NCBI GenBank assembly: GCA_947245585.1
Contig: CAMXPV010000021.1
Span: forward strand, 1-64,000
From: an uncultured Lachnospiraceae bacterium
GTDB lineage: Bacteria; Bacillota; Clostridia; Lachnospirales; Lachnospiraceae
Direction of reading: 5' to 3'
Length of the DNA: 64,000 nt
Made by a program: the position numbers and the translations under genes. Below are positions 17,999 through 24,688 of the stretch, piece by piece (position 1 is the first letter of the stretch; each line of letters starts with the position of its first letter). The notes beneath the pieces are model-generated. The model searched no databases. It was not told where the DNA came from and worked only from the letters and a program-made list of their open reading frames with translations.

Positions 17999-18536
17999 CA
18001 ACAGACAGGATGCCTGCGCGATCCGTGATCTTCTGGAAGGGCAGAAAGTAAAATTGTATAGCGATGCCGAAAGCCTGCTTGTGGATGTCAGGCAGGGCGG
18101 CCTGCATTACGACCTGTACCTGTTGGACATTCTTATGGAAAACTCCATGAGCGGGCTGGAACTGGCACAGGAACTCAGAGCCGTGGATGAGGCGGCAGTC
18201 CTGTGTTTCGTGTCTACAAGCGACGATTTTTACAGGGAGGCATACGACCTGTACGCGATACAGTACCTGATAAAACCCGTAAACAGGGAAGTAATGCAGC
18301 GGCTGCTTGACAAGGTAGAGCGGATCTTCATAAAAAAAGTGGAGAAAACGCTCCCGTATTCATGGCGGCGGGCATCGGGCGTTATTCCCTACGGGAAAAT
18401 TTTGTATATCAGCAGCAGGGAACATGTGCTTTCCATCTTGCAAAAAAATACAGAATATAAAAAATCCGATGCTCCCAGAATGGAATACATCGGATTTTAT
18501 TATGTTACATATCTTCTGGCAGAAGTTCGATCATAA
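17976..18536 (+). pseudogene. LytTR-family response regulator truncated in its DNA-binding domain
   Basis: The receiver domain is complete (about 1-118): DD at 7-8, phosphoacceptor Asp51 in LYLLDILM and the KPV lysine. The LytTR DNA-binding domain begins as usual (ASGVIPYGKILYISSREHVLSI) but after about residue 153 (base 18436) the frame passes into unrelated sequence, including the terminator of the opposing remnant, and stops at 18536. A normal LytTR domain needs about 75 more residues. The regulator should therefore not bind DNA in the usual way. No kinase gene is nearby. ATG 17976 fits AAAGGAG at 17961-17967. Confidence 0.75.
18459..18500 (-). terminator. Terminator of the minus-strand PD-(D/E)XK remnant
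   Basis: ATAAAAAATCCGATG (left) and CATCGGATTTTAT (right) form an A/T-flanked hairpin just past the minus-strand stop at 18505. The truncated regulator frame reads through it. Confidence 0.65.
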
Positions 18537-18945
18537 GCTGCATCTGAAAGTCTTTGTCCGTAGCAGCACGTTTTAAGTCGTCAAATCTGTTCAGATTGAT
18601 CAGAATAGAGTTGAGAGTATTGATGCGGGTTTCACCTTCGATTCTGCCTTCGATTCTGCCCTCGTTACGAATTTTTTCCATTATTTCACACATAACCTGT
18701 TGTCCCTCCTCTGTCTCTTTGTACCGGCGCTTACTGCCGGAGGTGACGGGAAATTTGCTGTTATATGCAGCATCCTCGACAAATACTTCCATCAGTTCCG
18801 ATATTTCGGAACCGTCCTTTACTTTGGCGTTGACGTAAACTTCTTCAGACCCATTATCGACAACTTTCCCTGTTTCCCTTATGACACGATCCACATGGTA
18901 TAGGGAGCCTACGACATCAAAGAGTTGCCGTTTTATGCCTTTTAG
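18505..18945 (-). pseudogene. C-terminal remnant of a PD-(D/E)XK (Rpn-like) transposase-family gene
   Basis: The frame encodes the C-terminal third of the family: LYHVDRVIRETGK, EEVYVNAKVKDGSEIS, then a KETEEGQQVMCEIMEKIRNEG block and a degenerate GRIEGRIEGE repeat before the end. The nuclease core is missing. The frame is open back to a TAG at 18946-18948, with no suitable start; the ATG at 18894 lies inside conserved sequence. It is a 5'-deleted copy, from a different subfamily than the intact protein at 12350. Confidence 0.7.
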
Positions 18946-18972
18946 CTATCTAATATCATTTAATATAGGTAT

Positions 18973-19002
18973 TAGACATTTTAACTTTCTGTAGATTATA
19001 AT
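18973..19002 (+). promoter_or_regulatory. Promoter of the exported flavodoxin cluster
   Basis: TAGACA at 18973-18978, an 18-base spacer, and TATAAT at 18997-19002. The predicted start of transcription falls on the hairpin at 19005-19026. Confidence 0.6.
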
Positions 19003-19004
19003 GT

Positions 19005-19033
19005 AGGTGTCCTGAAAAGGGCACCTGTTTTTT
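19005..19033 (+). terminator. Hairpin plus T-run placed at the transcription start
   Basis: AGGTGTCC (19005-19012) pairs with GGGCACCT (19019-19026) and is followed by GTTTTTT. It has terminator form but begins only two bases after the -10 box, so it may instead be a 5'-end stabilising hairpin, an operator or an attenuator. Confidence 0.5.
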
Positions 19034-19068
19034 CGGAAAAATGACTAATAACCGGGGAGGAAATGAAG

Positions 19069-20616
19069 ATGAAATCGGGCCGAAAAGCGAAGATCATAAC
19101 ATTAATGGTAACGATTGTCTGCCTGGCAGCGGTTGGAACGGGCATTTATTTTCTGAACGGGGAGCGGTCAGGCCAAAAGAATCCGCCGCAGGATAAACCG
19201 GCAGAGATTCCTAATGCGGATTCGGCGGGGGATGCCGTTGAGATGCCCGTTGAAGAACCGGACGAAGATAACGAAAGAAAGGCGGAAGAAAGTGTGGAAG
19301 CGGGGACAGTAGATGATCATTTTGTTTTGTTGAAGGGCGGTTCCTTTGTTATGGGCAGTCCCGCAGAGGAACGACAGCGGCAGGAGGATGAAACGCAGCA
19401 TAACGTGACGGTGGGCAGCTTTTATATGGCCCCCTGTGAGGTAACACAGGAAGAGTATGAAGCGGTCATGGGAGAAAATCCTAGTTTTTTTGATGGAGAG
19501 AATCTTCCGGTAGAAAATGTGACATGGTATGACGCCATTGCATATTGCAATCGGTTGAGTGAGAACCGCGGTCTGACACCAGTCTATGCGGTGGAAGACA
19601 ATGTGGTAAGTTGGGATCGGGGCGCAAACGGCTATCGGCTTCCGACCGAGGCTGAATGGGAATATGCCGCCCGTGGAGGAACGGACACCATTTATCATTT
19701 CGGGAATCAGGTGCACAGCGATTATGCAAATTTTGAGGGCAGTTATCCGTATCTGATTGAAGAAAACTATGTGTCGCACAAAAATCCGGAGGTTGTTACG
19801 AGCCAAAACCGCGGGACAACGATTGCGGTGAATGAACTTGCGCCGAATGCTTTTGGTTTATATCATATGCATGGAAATGTGGCGGAGTGGTGCTTCGATT
19901 ATTATGGGGAATATGATGTGGCAAATAGTGTGAATCCAACAGGGGCGGGCAACGGTTCTCTGCGTGTCAACCGTGGCGGCAGCTACAATGACTTTGGAAA
20001 GCATCTGCGCAGTGCTTACCGCAGTGCCGCGAATCCTTTTGACGCAGACCAGAATCTGGGATTTCGTATCTGTCGCAATGCGGAAGTGACGGACGAAGTG
20101 GTGACGACAACATATTCATTGGATATTACGATTCCTGAGAATCCGAAAATCCTGATTGCATACTTCTCCTATTCCGGCAATACAAAAAACGCGGCGGAAA
20201 TCATCCGGGAAAAAACGGGAGCGGATCTGTTTGAGATTACGATGGAGAATCCCTATAATGGTAATATCTATGATGTATCACAGTATGATCTGATGAATGA
20301 AATCCACCCGGCGCTTTCCTCCCATGTGGAGAATATGGGGCAGTATGATGTGATCCTGTTAGGCTATCCTACATGGTGGGCAACCATGCCGATGCCGGTG
20401 TACTCGTTCCTCGAGGAATATGATTTTAGCGGAAAGACGATCGTTTCTTTCAGCTCTCACGGCGGCACGATGTTTGGAGACAGCGTTTCTGATCTCTCTA
20501 AAATGGTTCCGAACGCCTATGTGGGTGTTGGCTTTGAGTTCAATTATTCCGGCGGCAGCGGGCTTTCCGATGAGATTTCTCAGTGGCTTGCGGCAAGCGG
20601 TATTCGGGAGCAATAA
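19069..20616 (+). CDS. Membrane-anchored fusion of an FGE/SUMF1-like domain and a flavodoxin
   Basis: A protein of 515 residues: a signal-anchor helix (about 8-28), an acidic linker (about 32-82), an FGE-sulfatase/SUMF1-fold domain (about 86-343; GGSFVMGSP, YRLPTEAEWEYAARGG, HGNVAEWC, RVNRGGSY, GFRICR) and a C-terminal flavodoxin (about 360-515) with the FMN-phosphate loop SYSGNTKN and YPTWWATMPMP. The SUMF1 core lacks the active-site cysteines of true formylglycine-generating enzymes (NRGGSYNDFG where they have Cys), so it is more likely a binding domain. Both domains should face outward. GGGGAGG at 19054-19060 places the start at 19069 rather than at ATG 19063. The next gene begins two bases after the stop. 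Confidence 0.85.
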   Translation: MKSGRKAKIITLMVTIVCLAAVGTGIYFLNGERSGQKNPPQDKPAEIPNADSAGDAVEMPVEEPDEDNERKAEESVEAGTVDDHFVLLKGGSFVMGSPAEERQRQEDETQHNVTVGSFYMAPCEVTQEEYEAVMGENPSFFDGENLPVENVTWYDAIAYCNRLSENRGLTPVYAVEDNVVSWDRGANGYRLPTEAEWEYAARGGTDTIYHFGNQVHSDYANFEGSYPYLIEENYVSHKNPEVVTSQNRGTTIAVNELAPNAFGLYHMHGNVAEWCFDYYGEYDVANSVNPTGAGNGSLRVNRGGSYNDFGKHLRSAYRSAANPFDADQNLGFRICRNAEVTDEVVTTTYSLDITIPENPKILIAYFSYSGNTKNAAEIIREKTGADLFEITMENPYNGNIYDVSQYDLMNEIHPALSSHVENMGQYDVILLGYPTWWATMPMPVYSFLEEYDFSGKTIVSFSSHGGTMFGDSVSDLSKMVPNAYVGVGFEFNYSGGSGLSDEISQWLAASGIREQ

Positions 20617-20618
20617 CG

Positions 20619-21278
20619 ATGAAAAGATATGGCAAGATATTGACGGATATCGTAATGCTCGTTCTGTTCCTGTACCTGATGCGTTATCATCCGGGTATGG
20701 GACTGCGGCTCCATGCGATATTGGGCATTGTATTATTTGTACTGTTTATTCTGCACCATTTCCTGAACAGGAAGTGGTATGCAGTCCTGTTCAAAGGGCA
20801 GTATCGCTTCCACAGGATATTGCTGACGGTTTTTGATTTTCTGCTGCTTTTTGCAATGTTGGCGATGATGGTCAGTTCCTTTATGATCTCCGGACTGGCC
20901 TTTCCGATTTCTTTTTTACCGGTGGCTTTTTACTGGCGGGACATCCATGTGATGTCCACAGCATGGGGATTTATGCTGATGGCGTTTCATCTGGGACTGC
21001 ATTTGCATGGCTTTCTCTCAAAAATAGAGTCCAAAATGGGGGAAACGATTTTTGGATATGTCGTTTACTTATTGGAGCTGTTGGTATTGGGAGGCGGAAT
21101 ATATGGGTTTTTGCAAAGCGGTTTATGGAGTGATATGCGGATGATACCGCAGAGCCTGCCGCCGCTTCCTGATTTGCTTTTTTATGTGGAATATATGGGA
21201 ATTATCGGAGGCATGGGCGTGGCGGTACATGGTTTACTAGGGGCAGTTCAAAAAAGAAAAATTGTTATAAAAAATTGA
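20619..21278 (+). CDS. DUF4405-like integral membrane protein, possible heme-b carrier
   Basis: A protein of 220 residues with about six hydrophobic helices. Histidines lie within or at the ends of helices (LHAILGIVLF, LHHFLNRKWY, DIHVMSTAW, MAFHLGLHLHGF), the pattern of cytochrome-b-like DUF4405 proteins that bind heme. Its placement two bases after one exported flavodoxin gene and 43 bases before another suggests that it passes electrons across the membrane to them. That role is inferred; heme binding is not shown. The start at 20619 is supported by GGGAG at 20606-20610; a longer frame from 20583 lies inside the previous gene. Confidence 0.7.
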   Translation: MKRYGKILTDIVMLVLFLYLMRYHPGMGLRLHAILGIVLFVLFILHHFLNRKWYAVLFKGQYRFHRILLTVFDFLLLFAMLAMMVSSFMISGLAFPISFLPVAFYWRDIHVMSTAWGFMLMAFHLGLHLHGFLSKIESKMGETIFGYVVYLLELLVLGGGIYGFLQSGLWSDMRMIPQSLPPLPDLLFYVEYMGIIGGMGVAVHGLLGAVQKRKIVIKN

Positions 21279-21321
21279 AAGAGGCGCAGAACGCTTCGGA
21301 ATGGAGGAAAGGAGGAAGTAT

Positions 21322-22416
21322 ATGAAAAGATTAGCGGTAAGTATGTTTGTAATGGGAATGCTGATGTTTCAGACAGCCTGCGGGAGCCAGTCTACAGGAG
21401 AAGAGTCGGCAAAAGCAGCCGTGGAAAGTGTCGAAAACGCAGCCGAGACGGAAACGAATATCGGAGAGGAAATACAAGTGGCAGAAAATGCGGAAACGGA
21501 AGAAAAAGATGCAGATACGGAGGATATGACAATGAAGATTACGGCAGGAGACACAACGTTTACGGCAGCGCTTGCAGAAAATTCTTCTGCGGAGGCATTG
21601 AAGGAGCTGCTTGCAGGGGGGCCGTTGACCATTCAAATGAGTGATTATGCAAGCATGGAGAAGGTAGGGCCAGTTGGAACAGACCTTCCGAGAAATGATG
21701 AGCAGATTGATGCGGATGCGGGAGATATCATTCTCTATCAGGGAAATTCTCTGGTGATTTACTATGGCACAAACTCCTGGAATTTTACCAGAATCGGTAA
21801 GATTCAGGATGTGACAAAGGAGGAACTTTTAGAGGCATTTGGAGATGGCGATGTGACGGTTACCTTTTCGCTGGGATCGGAAGAAAGTGGTATAATAAAG
21901 GAGGCGGATGAAACAGAGGCAAAGACAAAGGCGTTGGTCGTTTATTTTTCGGCTACGGGAAACACAGAGGCAGTTGCGGAGACATTGGCCGGATTACAGG
22001 ATGCCGATTTATACGAAATTGTGCCGGAACAGCCTTATACGGACGAAGATCTGAATTACAGAGACAACGCCACCCGCGCGACGGTCAAGCAGAATGACCC
22101 GGAGGCCCGTCCTGCCATACAGGGCAGTATACCGGATTTTGAGCAGTATGGGGTCGTCTATGTGGGCTTTCCGATCTGGTGGAGTGATATGCCGCGAATT
22201 TTGTATACATTTTTTGATACCTATGATTTCAGTGGAAAGACGATCGCGCCGTTTTGTACTAGCGGCGGCAGCGGGCTTTCGGGAACACCGGAGACGATTG
22301 CCGAGTTGGAAGCGGACGCGGTGGAGCTTGACGGTCTTCACATCAGCGGTTCCTCAGTAAGCAACGCAGAAAAGAGTGTGTCAGAGTGGCTCGATGAGAT
22401 TGGAATGGCTAAATAG
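21322..22416 (+). CDS. Exported lipoprotein: cyclophilin-like domain fused to flavodoxin
   Basis: A protein of 364 residues. The signal peptide has a lipoprotein-type Cys20 (FQTAC), though the residue at -3 is unusual. An acidic linker follows, then a cyclophilin-like beta-barrel (about 72-190; DIILYQGNSLVIYYG) and a Flavodoxin_4 domain (about 205-364) with the FMN-phosphate loop FSATGNTEAV, GFPIWWSDMPR and CTSGGSGLSG. Many cytoplasmic proteins carry these two domains together, but here the N-terminus sends them outside. AAGGAGGA at 21309-21316 selects the ATG at 21322 over 21301. It probably forms one operon with the genes on either side. Confidence 0.85.
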   Translation: MKRLAVSMFVMGMLMFQTACGSQSTGEESAKAAVESVENAAETETNIGEEIQVAENAETEEKDADTEDMTMKITAGDTTFTAALAENSSAEALKELLAGGPLTIQMSDYASMEKVGPVGTDLPRNDEQIDADAGDIILYQGNSLVIYYGTNSWNFTRIGKIQDVTKEELLEAFGDGDVTVTFSLGSEESGIIKEADETEAKTKALVVYFSATGNTEAVAETLAGLQDADLYEIVPEQPYTDEDLNYRDNATRATVKQNDPEARPAIQGSIPDFEQYGVVYVGFPIWWSDMPRILYTFFDTYDFSGKTIAPFCTSGGSGLSGTPETIAELEADAVELDGLHISGSSVSNAEKSVSEWLDEIGMAK

Positions 22417-22426
22417 GAGGCAGCAT

Positions 22427-23464
22427 ATGAAATATACGACGTTAGGGAACTCGGATTTGAACGTATCCCGTATCTGTATGGGGTGCATGGGGTTTGGCGA
22501 TGCGGGGAACGGACAGCATTCGTGGACGCTTGACGAGGAGCATTCCCGCGAGATCATCCGGCATGGACTGGAGCTTGGCGTTAATTTTTTTGACACGGCA
22601 ATCGGTTATCAGAGCGGCACAAGCGAACAGTATGTGGGGAGAGCATTGCGGGATTTTGCGAAACGTGGCGAGGCGGTTGTGGCGACAAAATTTCTGCCCC
22701 GCACACAGGACGATATCGCGGCGGGAATTACAGGGCAGCAGCATATTGAGCGCATGATAAATAAGAGCCTTGAAAATCTCGGCATGAATTATGTGGATTT
22801 ATATATTTATCATATGTGGGATTATCAGACACCGCTTTATGATATTATGGAAGGGTTAAATAATATCGTTAAGGCGGGAAAAACAAGATATATCGGCATT
22901 TCCAACTGCTTTGCATGGCAGCTTGCAAAGGCGAACGCATTGGCGGAAAAAGAAGGCTTTGCAAAGTTTATCTCCGTTCAGGGGCATTATAACCTGATTT
23001 TCCGGGAGGAGGAGCGGGAGATGGTAAAGCTGTGTGAGCAAGACCACATTGCCATGACACCCTACAGCGCACTGGCAGGGGGACGATTGTCAAAAGCTCC
23101 CGGAGAAACTTCAAAGCGTCTGGAGGAGGATAGCTATGCGAAAGGTAAGTATGATGCGACTGCGGCTCAGGACGGTGCGATCATCGGGCGCGTAATGGAG
23201 TTGGCAAAAAAACACGGCGTATCCATGACGGAAATCTCCCTTGCATGGCTTTTGTCAAAAGTAACGGCCCCGGTAGTTGGGGCGACGAAACTGCATCATA
23301 TGGAAGGGGCGGCCAAAGCGGTGGATCTCGTGCTCACGGAGGAAGAAAGCGCATATTTGGAAGAACCCTATGTTCCCCATGCACTCGTGGGCGTTATGGC
23401 GCAAAATACCGCAGCGGCATCAAAAGAAAGACATGTTTGGTCAACGGGAAACCAAAAAATATAG
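22427..23464 (+). CDS. Aldo/keto reductase
   Basis: A 345-residue NADPH-dependent oxidoreductase of the AKR/YhdN-like (tas) group. The (beta/alpha)8 catalytic tetrad is visible: Asp in FFDTAIGY, Tyr in the same motif, Lys in ATKFLP and His in YIYHMWD. It lies 10 bases after the flavodoxin lipoprotein behind TAGGAGG (22414-22420). It has no signal peptide, so it is cytoplasmic. The substrate is unknown. In related Clostridia such reductases are found beside flavodoxin and CMD genes in loci switched on by electrophiles. Confidence 0.9.
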   Translation: MKYTTLGNSDLNVSRICMGCMGFGDAGNGQHSWTLDEEHSREIIRHGLELGVNFFDTAIGYQSGTSEQYVGRALRDFAKRGEAVVATKFLPRTQDDIAAGITGQQHIERMINKSLENLGMNYVDLYIYHMWDYQTPLYDIMEGLNNIVKAGKTRYIGISNCFAWQLAKANALAEKEGFAKFISVQGHYNLIFREEEREMVKLCEQDHIAMTPYSALAGGRLSKAPGETSKRLEEDSYAKGKYDATAAQDGAIIGRVMELAKKHGVSMTEISLAWLLSKVTAPVVGATKLHHMEGAAKAVDLVLTEEESAYLEEPYVPHALVGVMAQNTAAASKERHVWSTGNQKI

Positions 23465-23500
23465 GCAAGAAATAAATGGAAAGATAAGGAGGAAAACAGG

Positions 23501-23827
23501 ATGGTAAAACAGACAGCAGGCAGGGATCAGCTTGGGGAATTTGCTCCGAAATTCGCACAGTTAAACGACGATGTGTTATTTGGAGAGGTATGGAGCAGGG
23601 AAGAAAAACTTTCTTTAAGGGACCGCTCCCTTGTAACGGTGGTATCGCTGATGGCGCAGGGACTGGTGGACTCTTCCTTTCAGTATCATTTGATGAGCGC
23701 AAAAAATAACGGAATTACCAAAGAGGAAATTGCGGAAATTTTAACCCACGCGGCATTTTACGCCGGATGGCCGAAAGCATGGGCGGCTTTTAAGATGGCG
23801 AAAGAGGTGTGGACGGAGGAGGGATAA
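23501..23827 (+). CDS. Carboxymuconolactone decarboxylase (CMD) family protein
   Basis: A 108-residue alpha-helical CMD-fold protein with the typical EVWSREEKLSLRDRSLVTV and ITKEEIAEILTHAAFYAGWPKAW motifs. It lacks the CxxC of AhpD-type peroxidase partners, so the activity is uncertain. It shares the operon with the aldo-keto reductase (36-base gap) and abuts the AraC gene. Confidence 0.88.
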   Translation: MVKQTAGRDQLGEFAPKFAQLNDDVLFGEVWSREEKLSLRDRSLVTVVSLMAQGLVDSSFQYHLMSAKNNGITKEEIAEILTHAAFYAGWPKAWAAFKMAKEVWTEEG

Positions 23828-24688
23828 ATGTATTGCCCAATAACAGCAACGCCTTTTCAAAGAGACCGTTATTATACGGAGATAGTTCCCTGTAAGGAAC
23901 TGCGGCCTTACATCAGATGCTATTGGGGGACGGAAGAGGCGCGTATCCGAGAGCAAAAGAAACCTGTGTCAAAGCTTGTAATTCCGGACACCTGCGCAGA
24001 TATTATTTATAACATAGATGATACGGCGCATACTGTGTCAGGGGGATTTTGCGGCATTAATGATCACAGTTTTTATGCTATTGAAGGGAAAAATGCCGAA
24101 CATGCAACGGCGACGTTTGCCATTCGGTTTTATGCGTGGAGCGCGTATGCGTTTGGTGAAGATACCTTGCGGTTTACCTTGAACGGATATTTTAGGGTGG
24201 GGTTCTTTTTCGAATGGTTGGACAGAATACTTCGTCCAAAATTACTGGAGCTGAAAACCCTGCAGGAAAAAGCGGCTTTTGTGGAGGAACTGCTGCTTAA
24301 AAGATTGGCTGACAGAAGAGAAAATAAGACGATTGACAGGGTGATCCCGTATATGATAGCGAACAGGGGCGCTTTGGAAATATCCGATTTGGCAAAGGAA
24401 TTTTTTGTAAGCACAAGGCAGTTGGAGCGTTTATTTCATGAGTATATTGGCCTTACGCCAAAGAAGCTCAGCAATTTAATACGGTATCAGCTTTTATGGA
24501 GGGATATCGTATGTGAAAAGGATTTTAACATTTTAAACGGCGTTCACAAATACGGATATGTGGATCAGGCCCATTTACAACGCGAATTTAAAAGGTATCA
24601 TTCCATGGATATCCAGAGCGCGAAAATCTTGGCGTTAAAAAATGTCGGAAATATACAAGACACTTTACCGCAGCCCATGGTAAAATGA
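23828..24688 (+). CDS. AraC-family transcriptional regulator
   Basis: A protein of 286 residues. The N-terminal cupin-like/DUF6597 sensing domain (about 1-170) is followed by two HTH motifs (about 185-285), including ISDLAKEFFVSTRQLERLF and YVDQAHLQREFKRY. It starts on the base after the CMD stop codon, so it is translated with the cluster and is a likely local regulator of the flavodoxin/AKR/CMD genes. The inducer is unknown. Confidence 0.88.
   Translation: MYCPITATPFQRDRYYTEIVPCKELRPYIRCYWGTEEARIREQKKPVSKLVIPDTCADIIYNIDDTAHTVSGGFCGINDHSFYAIEGKNAEHATATFAIRFYAWSAYAFGEDTLRFTLNGYFRVGFFFEWLDRILRPKLLELKTLQEKAAFVEELLLKRLADRRENKTIDRVIPYMIANRGALEISDLAKEFFVSTRQLERLFHEYIGLTPKKLSNLIRYQLLWRDIVCEKDFNILNGVHKYGYVDQAHLQREFKRYHSMDIQSAKILALKNVGNIQDTLPQPMVK

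Follow-up and report, generated by a model that had tools for sequence, protein, structure and literature searches.

The window analysed here, a stretch of 64,000 nucleotides from an uncultured Lachnospiraceae bacterium (assembly GCA_947245585.1, contig CAMXPV010000021.1, positions 1 to 64,000, forward strand), carries three adjacent genes that encode two exported flavodoxins (P1 and P3) and, between them, a heme-b-type membrane protein of the DUF4405 family (P2). It is fairly probable that this locus is an extracytoplasmic electron-transfer module independent of ApbE, in which a DUF4405 cytochrome would work together with exported flavodoxins carrying no covalent flavin. A cytoplasmic flavin or flavodoxin would donate electrons to two b hemes of P2. 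These electrons would pass to the flavodoxin of P1, kept at the outer face of the membrane by its signal anchor, and then move through the flavodoxin of P3 to an acceptor, with the domain of the formylglycine-generating enzyme (FGE) fold in P1 and the cyclophilin-like domain in P3 as binding or docking parts. In this scheme we infer the binding of flavin mononucleotide (FMN) and heme, the outward direction, the order of the carriers and the roles of the FGE and cyclophilin-like parts and of two downstream enzymes, an aldo/keto reductase (AKR) and a carboxymuconolactone decarboxylase (CMD) family protein. The observation made in the preliminary description of this locus was confirmed and its interpretation partly supported.

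At its core the finding is of a kind already published, as Huang et al. (2024; PMC11334425) describe a DUF4405 heme b cytochrome clustered with apbE and with flavinylated extracytosolic Flavodoxin_4 proteins, and the earlier suggestion that such a system had not been described was therefore given up. What appears to be new is that the flavin site is plain and probably non-covalent, that a flavodoxin is fused to FGE, that cytochrome and flavodoxin can share a single chain, and that some surface proteins hold several flavodoxins. A literature search that largely excluded subscription papers, together with the accessible parts of PMC11334425, PMC8238504 and PMC5898192, gave no description of surface flavodoxins without flavinylation, of a fusion between FGE and flavodoxin, or of cytochrome and flavodoxin in a single chain.

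Architecture of the three proteins

In the list of open reading frames (ORFs), the genes begin at 19069, 20619 and 21322 on the + strand and are separated by 2 and 43 bases, as described before. P1 (19069..20616, 515 aa) starts with a signal anchor, which the hydropathy script found as a single N-terminal hydrophobic helix (residues 9-27, 19093..19149; hydropathy 2.21, four K/R residues ahead), and continues with an FGE-sulfatase domain (residues 84-335, 19318..20073; PF03781, 1.5e-48) and a Flavodoxin_4 domain (residues 360-507, 20146..20589; PF12682, 1.2e-27, 96.7 bits against a cutoff of 24). Its likely translation start is the ATG at 19069, since an in-frame ATG at 19063 is absent from the congener G331. 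In P3 (21322..22416, 364 aa) a signal peptide with Cys20 precedes a Cyclophil_like2 domain (residues 73-183, 21538..21870; PF18050, 3.3e-26), which agrees with the cyclophilin-like barrel first proposed for it, and a second Flavodoxin_4 domain (residues 203-359, 21928..22398; PF12682, 6e-47, 159.4 bits against the cutoff of 24).

The original claim that both flavodoxins are exported is supported by the anchor helix of P1, the signal peptide of P3, the lipoboxes of homologs and the surface modules of relatives. For P3 "exported" is firmer than "lipoprotein" because its lipobox (FQTA-C, with Q at -3, identical in G331) is imperfect, and of the lipoprotein signal claimed earlier the export part is the better supported. 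It is scarcely credible that the signal regions are non-functional and the flavodoxins cytoplasmic. The imperfect lipobox of P3 and the lack of a dedicated signal predictor behind the export calls speak for that explanation, but homologs have anchors or lipoboxes, the single-chain fusions described below have an extra helix, and choline-binding and SLH modules occur in relatives.

P2 (20619..21278, 219 aa; PF14358) matched DUF4405 above the Pfam cutoff (1e-7, 32.8 bits against 26.7). In an alignment of the window, the survey loci and relatives, from which one of 68 loci was dropped for a match shorter than 110 residues, His32, His46, His110 and His124 were invariant in 67 of 67 rows and His128 was present in 66, which supports the DUF4405-like heme protein originally suggested. 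The invariant histidines form two H-x13-H pairs, and because two-heme b cytochromes show such a doubled H-x13-H spacing, P2 is predicted to carry two b hemes. The hydropathy script gave seven segments, of which one pair meets within 67-104; when this pair is taken as one, P2 can be read as six helices, and the loop charges suggest that both termini are cytoplasmic. The six helices of the preliminary description are thus reached only by this merging, which matches the DUF4405 protein of an Oscillospiraceae bacterium in which Huang et al. (2024; PMC11334425) report measured heme b, six helices and four central histidines. DUF4405 had been assigned to the cytochrome b family already in 2015 (PMC5898192).

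That the SUMF1-type FGE domain of P1 is without active-site cysteines was also correct. None of the cysteines of P1 (positions 18, 123, 160, 275 and 335) aligns with those of the FGE active site, and the aligned C-terminal segment of the domain has no Cys, so that both active-site cysteines of formylglycine enzymes are absent; an active formylglycine enzyme was rejected on this ground. Judged by sequence, the best solved-structure match of the domain (19306-20094) was the Treponema denticola variable protein 2y3c, which scored above formylglycine-generating enzymes; PvdO (5hha) and PorK/GldK were also among the solved matches to P1. We take these three to be FGE-fold proteins other than formylglycine enzymes. 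Compared by name only, they list no flavodoxin, whereas P1 is fused to one. The C-terminal region is variable in proteins of the 2y3c kind; in contrast, it is conserved in the homologs of P1. A variable protein of a diversity-generating retroelement, a candidate prompted by 2y3c, was dropped since this region is conserved across six aligned homologs, a reverse transcriptase not having been searched for. Five P1 homologs, 47-49% identical in the alignment, have lipoboxes where P1 has its anchor.

Type of the flavodoxin domains

In flavinylated Flavodoxin_4 proteins the modified Ser/Thr lies in a segment inserted between strand 1 and helix 1, and Huang et al. set extracytosolic members of the family against unflavinylated cytosolic ones (PMC11334425). 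We classed domains as inserted or plain, that is, with or without this insertion, by regular expressions built from that description. In the surveyed loci the inserted type has a D-A-x-S/T-S/G-A-S-like motif ahead of the GNT segment, which on our reading of Huang et al. would be the flavinylation motif. Both window domains are without the insertion, have intact phosphate loops (YFSYSGNT in P1, YFSATGNT in P3) and contain PTWW and PIWW, and their flavin site is probably non-covalent.

Linkage of the cytochrome and the flavodoxins

In a family sample of 299 genomes, a DUF4405 match was present in 73, and we analysed 61 stretches, the window and the best-scoring 60 of the 102 other DUF4405 match rows. 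A Flavodoxin_4 ORF lay within 3 kb of DUF4405 in 48 of the 61, and an exported or membrane-fused one in 44. With 3 Flavodoxin_4 matches in the 3.69 Mb of the window genome, linkage by chance would be roughly 0.005 per stretch; a genome that has eight would raise this to about 0.015 at most. In a genus sample, where 18 of 41 genomes had DUF4405, a hand count gave a flavodoxin match within 3 kb for 17 of 24 DUF4405 matches. The domains near DUF4405 comprised 36 exported plain, 26 exported inserted, 8 plain without a signal, 3 partial, 2 other and 1 truncated. In the 36/26 count a two-type protein, L071, stands as plain, and it was reassigned for the comparison with apbE below. Of the two flavodoxin motifs in this lipoprotein (L071:439-1827), the first kind is plain and the other has a flavinylation-type insertion; the protein was the only one of the 36 exported proteins first classed as plain that matched a wider ApbE-motif pattern. 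On a tree the plain and inserted types were clustered, with 4 changes between them, although the tree was built from few columns and has long branches as well as open forks.

It is very improbable that the locus is a case of the ApbE-dependent system already published, in which the flavodoxins bear covalent FMN. The same two families are clustered in Huang et al. (2024; PMC11334425) and the window genome has one ApbE; however, besides the missing insertion, a pattern search gave no ApbE-type motif in P1, P2 or P3, and the window gene cluster contains no apbE, the sole ApbE match of the genome lying on another contig (C38). In the survey, 5 of the 24 loci that have an inserted flavodoxin carry apbE no more than 6 kb from DUF4405, as against 0 of the 37 that have no inserted one (Fisher p 0.007); the apbE of G194 lies 4.8 kb from DUF4405, and that of G217, one of the five copies, has internal stops. 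Membership in the ApbE-flavinylated system was dropped for these reasons.

The link between cytochrome and flavodoxin is closest where both are in one chain. DUF4405, FGE and Flavodoxin_4 are joined in L058, L085 and L105, and DUF4405 and Flavodoxin_4 in L052 and L089, all above the Pfam cutoffs; L231, and L213 with a partial flavodoxin, were similar fusions by custom profiles. In the four chains examined (L058, L085, L052 and L089) a K/R-rich loop and then an extra helix come directly before the soluble part. Ahead of this part the script detected seven helices in L052, where it also placed a false one within the flavodoxin. For L058, L085 and L089 it gave six, presumably having missed the helix that bears the second histidine pair. 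With helix 6 ending on the cytoplasmic side and one helix added, the flavodoxin of the fused chains would be outside, and the signal anchor of P1 looks like a split version of this extra helix.

The same association was seen from the side of the FGE domain, which matched in 24 of the 299 family genomes. Each of the 10 closest matches (E <=2.9e-82, own genome included) was fused to DUF4405 or lay at most 4 kb away from it; one of the ten is G176, where the FGE gene is interrupted by a stop and the DUF4405 match is only partial. Among the 14 genomes with a weaker match, six were fetched as unfused controls, one (G010) has a DUF4405+FGE chain (L067), and seven were not fetched around FGE. DUF4405 occurred in 0 of the 6 control stretches, none of these genomes being among those with a DUF4405 match in the family sample. 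One of the seven, G264, has a short and weak match to FGE at a distance of 160 bases from its match to DUF4405.

The gene order is also kept, fully or in part, in other Lachnospiraceae, the comparison first proposed as a check. All three genes stand in order in G331, and the FGE-flavodoxin is followed by DUF4405 in L103 (uncultured Lachnospiraceae), then by a cupin gene, another exported flavodoxin and a cyclophilin-like gene that is split between two frames and showed no flavodoxin. In L104 an FGE-flavodoxin is present and DUF4405 is absent from the 7.4-kb contig. The genome scan gave further FGE relatives in the single-chain L105, in L106 and in L110, which is broken and comes from a Solobacterium metagenome-assembled genome.

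Surface flavodoxins across the class

In a class sample of 391 genomes, 16 matched the FGE part at E <=1e-40, and the 15 other than the window's own were fetched. FGE and flavodoxin share one ORF in 14 of the 15, and G626 has FGE alone. Together with the family survey this gave 111 exported flavodoxin proteins (72 from the survey, window included, and 39 from the class set), a collection that contains no DUF4405-fused chains, no ORFs lacking a signal by rule and, on the survey side, no truncated ORFs. Domain matches were 111 Flavodoxin_4, 22 FGE, 17 Cu_amine_oxidN1, 8 Cyclophil_like2, 2 Big_2 and one each of SLH, CMD and choline-binding. By motif, 77 were plain, 28 inserted, 1 both and 5 neither (39, 28, 1 and 4 in the survey part; 38 plain and 1 neither in the class part, whose plain share is not a census because that set was found through the FGE domain).

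Some of these chains are clearly modular. In L236:4963-8109 (1048 aa) three SLH stretches are combined with a flavodoxin, FGE and then a further two flavodoxins, and its genome (G366) has no DUF4405 match; L054 has a choline-binding repeat and a flavodoxin in one protein. As SLH and choline-binding modules are cell-wall anchors, these fusions are, among the sequence data, the best argument for plain flavodoxins acting outside the cell. In L232:3312-5465 a signal sequence is followed by two CMD stretches, Cu_amine_oxidN1 and a flavodoxin, which would possibly make the chain an enzyme fused to its own electron donor.

We tentatively suggest, as a wider proposition held with less confidence than the one for the window, that Clostridia have non-covalent surface flavodoxins, with up to three domains and FGE on an SLH-anchored chain, which may relay electrons across the cell wall without ApbE flavinylation and be fed either by the single-chain fusion of heme cytochrome and flavodoxin or by the split form of the window. 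Plain proteins make up more than half of the exported flavodoxins in the loci sampled (39/72 in the family survey; 77/111 when the FGE-selected class set is included). If they work in this way, either tight non-covalent FMN suffices outside the cell or the proteins take up FMN from their surroundings, and Clostridia have a wider range of candidate systems for extracellular electron transfer.

An improbable alternative is that the exported domains have lost FMN and act as binding or structural modules, as Cys-less FGE folds may. It would fit the fusion partners, which include FGE, cyclophilin-like, Big and Cu_amine_oxidN1 modules; several of these serve in binding or at the surface. The phosphate loop pattern is nevertheless retained in 78 of the 111 proteins (77 plain and 1 both), a PxWW-type motif is found in 32 of the 36 exported plain proteins near DUF4405, though in only 10 of the 26 inserted ones, and the domains are linked to a heme protein, with a ratio of nonsynonymous to synonymous substitution (dN/dS) of 0.085 for P1 against G331.

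Several observations weigh against an ApbE-independent module fed by DUF4405. In 13 of the 61 DUF4405 stretches no flavodoxin lay within 3 kb; some of these stretches are cut by the end of a contig. Outside the family, 14 genomes have the FGE-flavodoxin, and DUF4405 was above the cutoff in 6 of them, below it in 1 (G622) and without a match in 7 (G354, G442, G388, G572, G366, G606 and G689); only 5 of the 14 fetched stretches contained it. Export was called from hydropathy and lipobox rules only. An ApbE does exist in the window genome, outside the operon; before the reassignment of L071 the apbE contrast was 4/22 versus 1/39 (p 0.05); and no flavin exporter was seen among the operon genes scanned. 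A non-covalent exported flavodoxin could also lose its FMN, which is the argument of Huang et al. for flavinylation (PMC11334425).

The 8 of 14 genomes without DUF4405 above the cutoff refute a universal requirement for DUF4405 and indicate that some surface flavodoxins get their electrons otherwise. The same figure favours another explanation, namely that exported flavodoxins are surface flavin-dependent reductases (of quinones, nitro or azo compounds, or others), taking electrons from diffusible reduced flavin or several donors, with DUF4405 as one optional donor. We consider this unlikely for the locus, though it is the most serious of the alternatives. The recurrence of cytosolic-type redox neighbours (AKR, CMD, Fe-ADH, FMN_red and Flavin_Reduct) and the exported CMD-CMD-Cu_amine_oxidN1-flavodoxin fusion of L232 agree with it, but within the window's own family the strong DUF4405 linkage and the single-chain fusions favour a cytochrome-fed module. 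LysR regulators, cupin genes and small signal-less flavodoxins also recur near surface flavodoxins; the neighbour families come from Pfam scans of chosen examples only, similar ORFs elsewhere being recognised by eye. As genes for cytosolic flavodoxins and FMN_red recur there, either would be a plausible donor.

Near surface flavodoxin clusters, even without DUF4405, there were DUF362 proteins whose N-terminus resembles a signal, as well as an ArsP_1 permease (L238:963-2450, L103:3243-4706 and L241:296-1198).

Relation to known systems

The clusters of Huang et al. (2024; PMC11334425) and the window have in common a DUF4405 heme-b cytochrome encoded with extracytosolic Flavodoxin_4 in Firmicutes. 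Unlike those clusters, the window is without the flavinylation insertion, has no apbE in its operon and has one flavodoxin fused to FGE, and its relatives include single-chain DUF4405 fusions. In the flavinylation-based extracytosolic transfer of Meheust et al. (2021; PMC8238504), flavoproteins likewise carry electrons past the cytoplasmic membrane; the window differs in its non-covalent-type flavin site and in that the operon proteins scanned with Pfam gave no FMN-bind family match. The solved flavodoxins closest to both window domains were 3klb, 4ici and 4j8p, of which 3klb has non-covalent FMN according to PMC11334425. These are chains of 159-171 residues, whereas the window domains are exported and fused to other domains. 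MsrQ and PepSY-like proteins, which are compared in the same paper, also feed an extracytosolic partner from a heme b membrane protein, but the partner in the window is a flavodoxin without the flavinylation insertion.

Operon and upstream region

A sigma-70-like promoter (TAGACA-18-TATAAT, 18973..19002, +, 11 of 12 matches, kept in G331) lies where it was originally placed. It is directly followed, ahead of P1, by a terminator-like hairpin with a T-run (19003..19028, +), also kept in G331, where a single A-to-G change in the 3' arm retains pairing as G-U. The hairpin is possibly an attenuator of the operon. A known RNA element upstream of or within the operon was dropped as a candidate, as an Rfam search of 18400-23600 gave none at gathering scores, the hairpin included.

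The single operon first proposed holds for P1 to P3 but is probably longer, because genes for AKR (22427..23464, +; PF00248), CMD (23501..23827, +; PF02627) and an AraC-type regulator (23828..24688, +; PF12833) follow P3 with gaps of 10, 36 and 0 bases. AKR is an operon member by spacing and recurs beside exported flavodoxins, CMD is a recurrent neighbour, and the AraC-type regulator is likely a member. In G331 (locus L212) P1, P2, P3 and the following genes have the same order, with a similar AraC-like ORF at the equivalent place, identified from its N-terminal sequence and not by profile. Against G331, dN/dS was 0.128 for P2, 0.229 for P3 and 0.054 for AKR, as compared with the value of P1 given above. 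Upstream of the operon lies a 129-aa ORF on the minus strand (18505-18894) with no Pfam match. As a 282-aa minus-strand ORF occupies the same place upstream of the corresponding operon in G331, the ORF of the window may be a remnant of such a gene.

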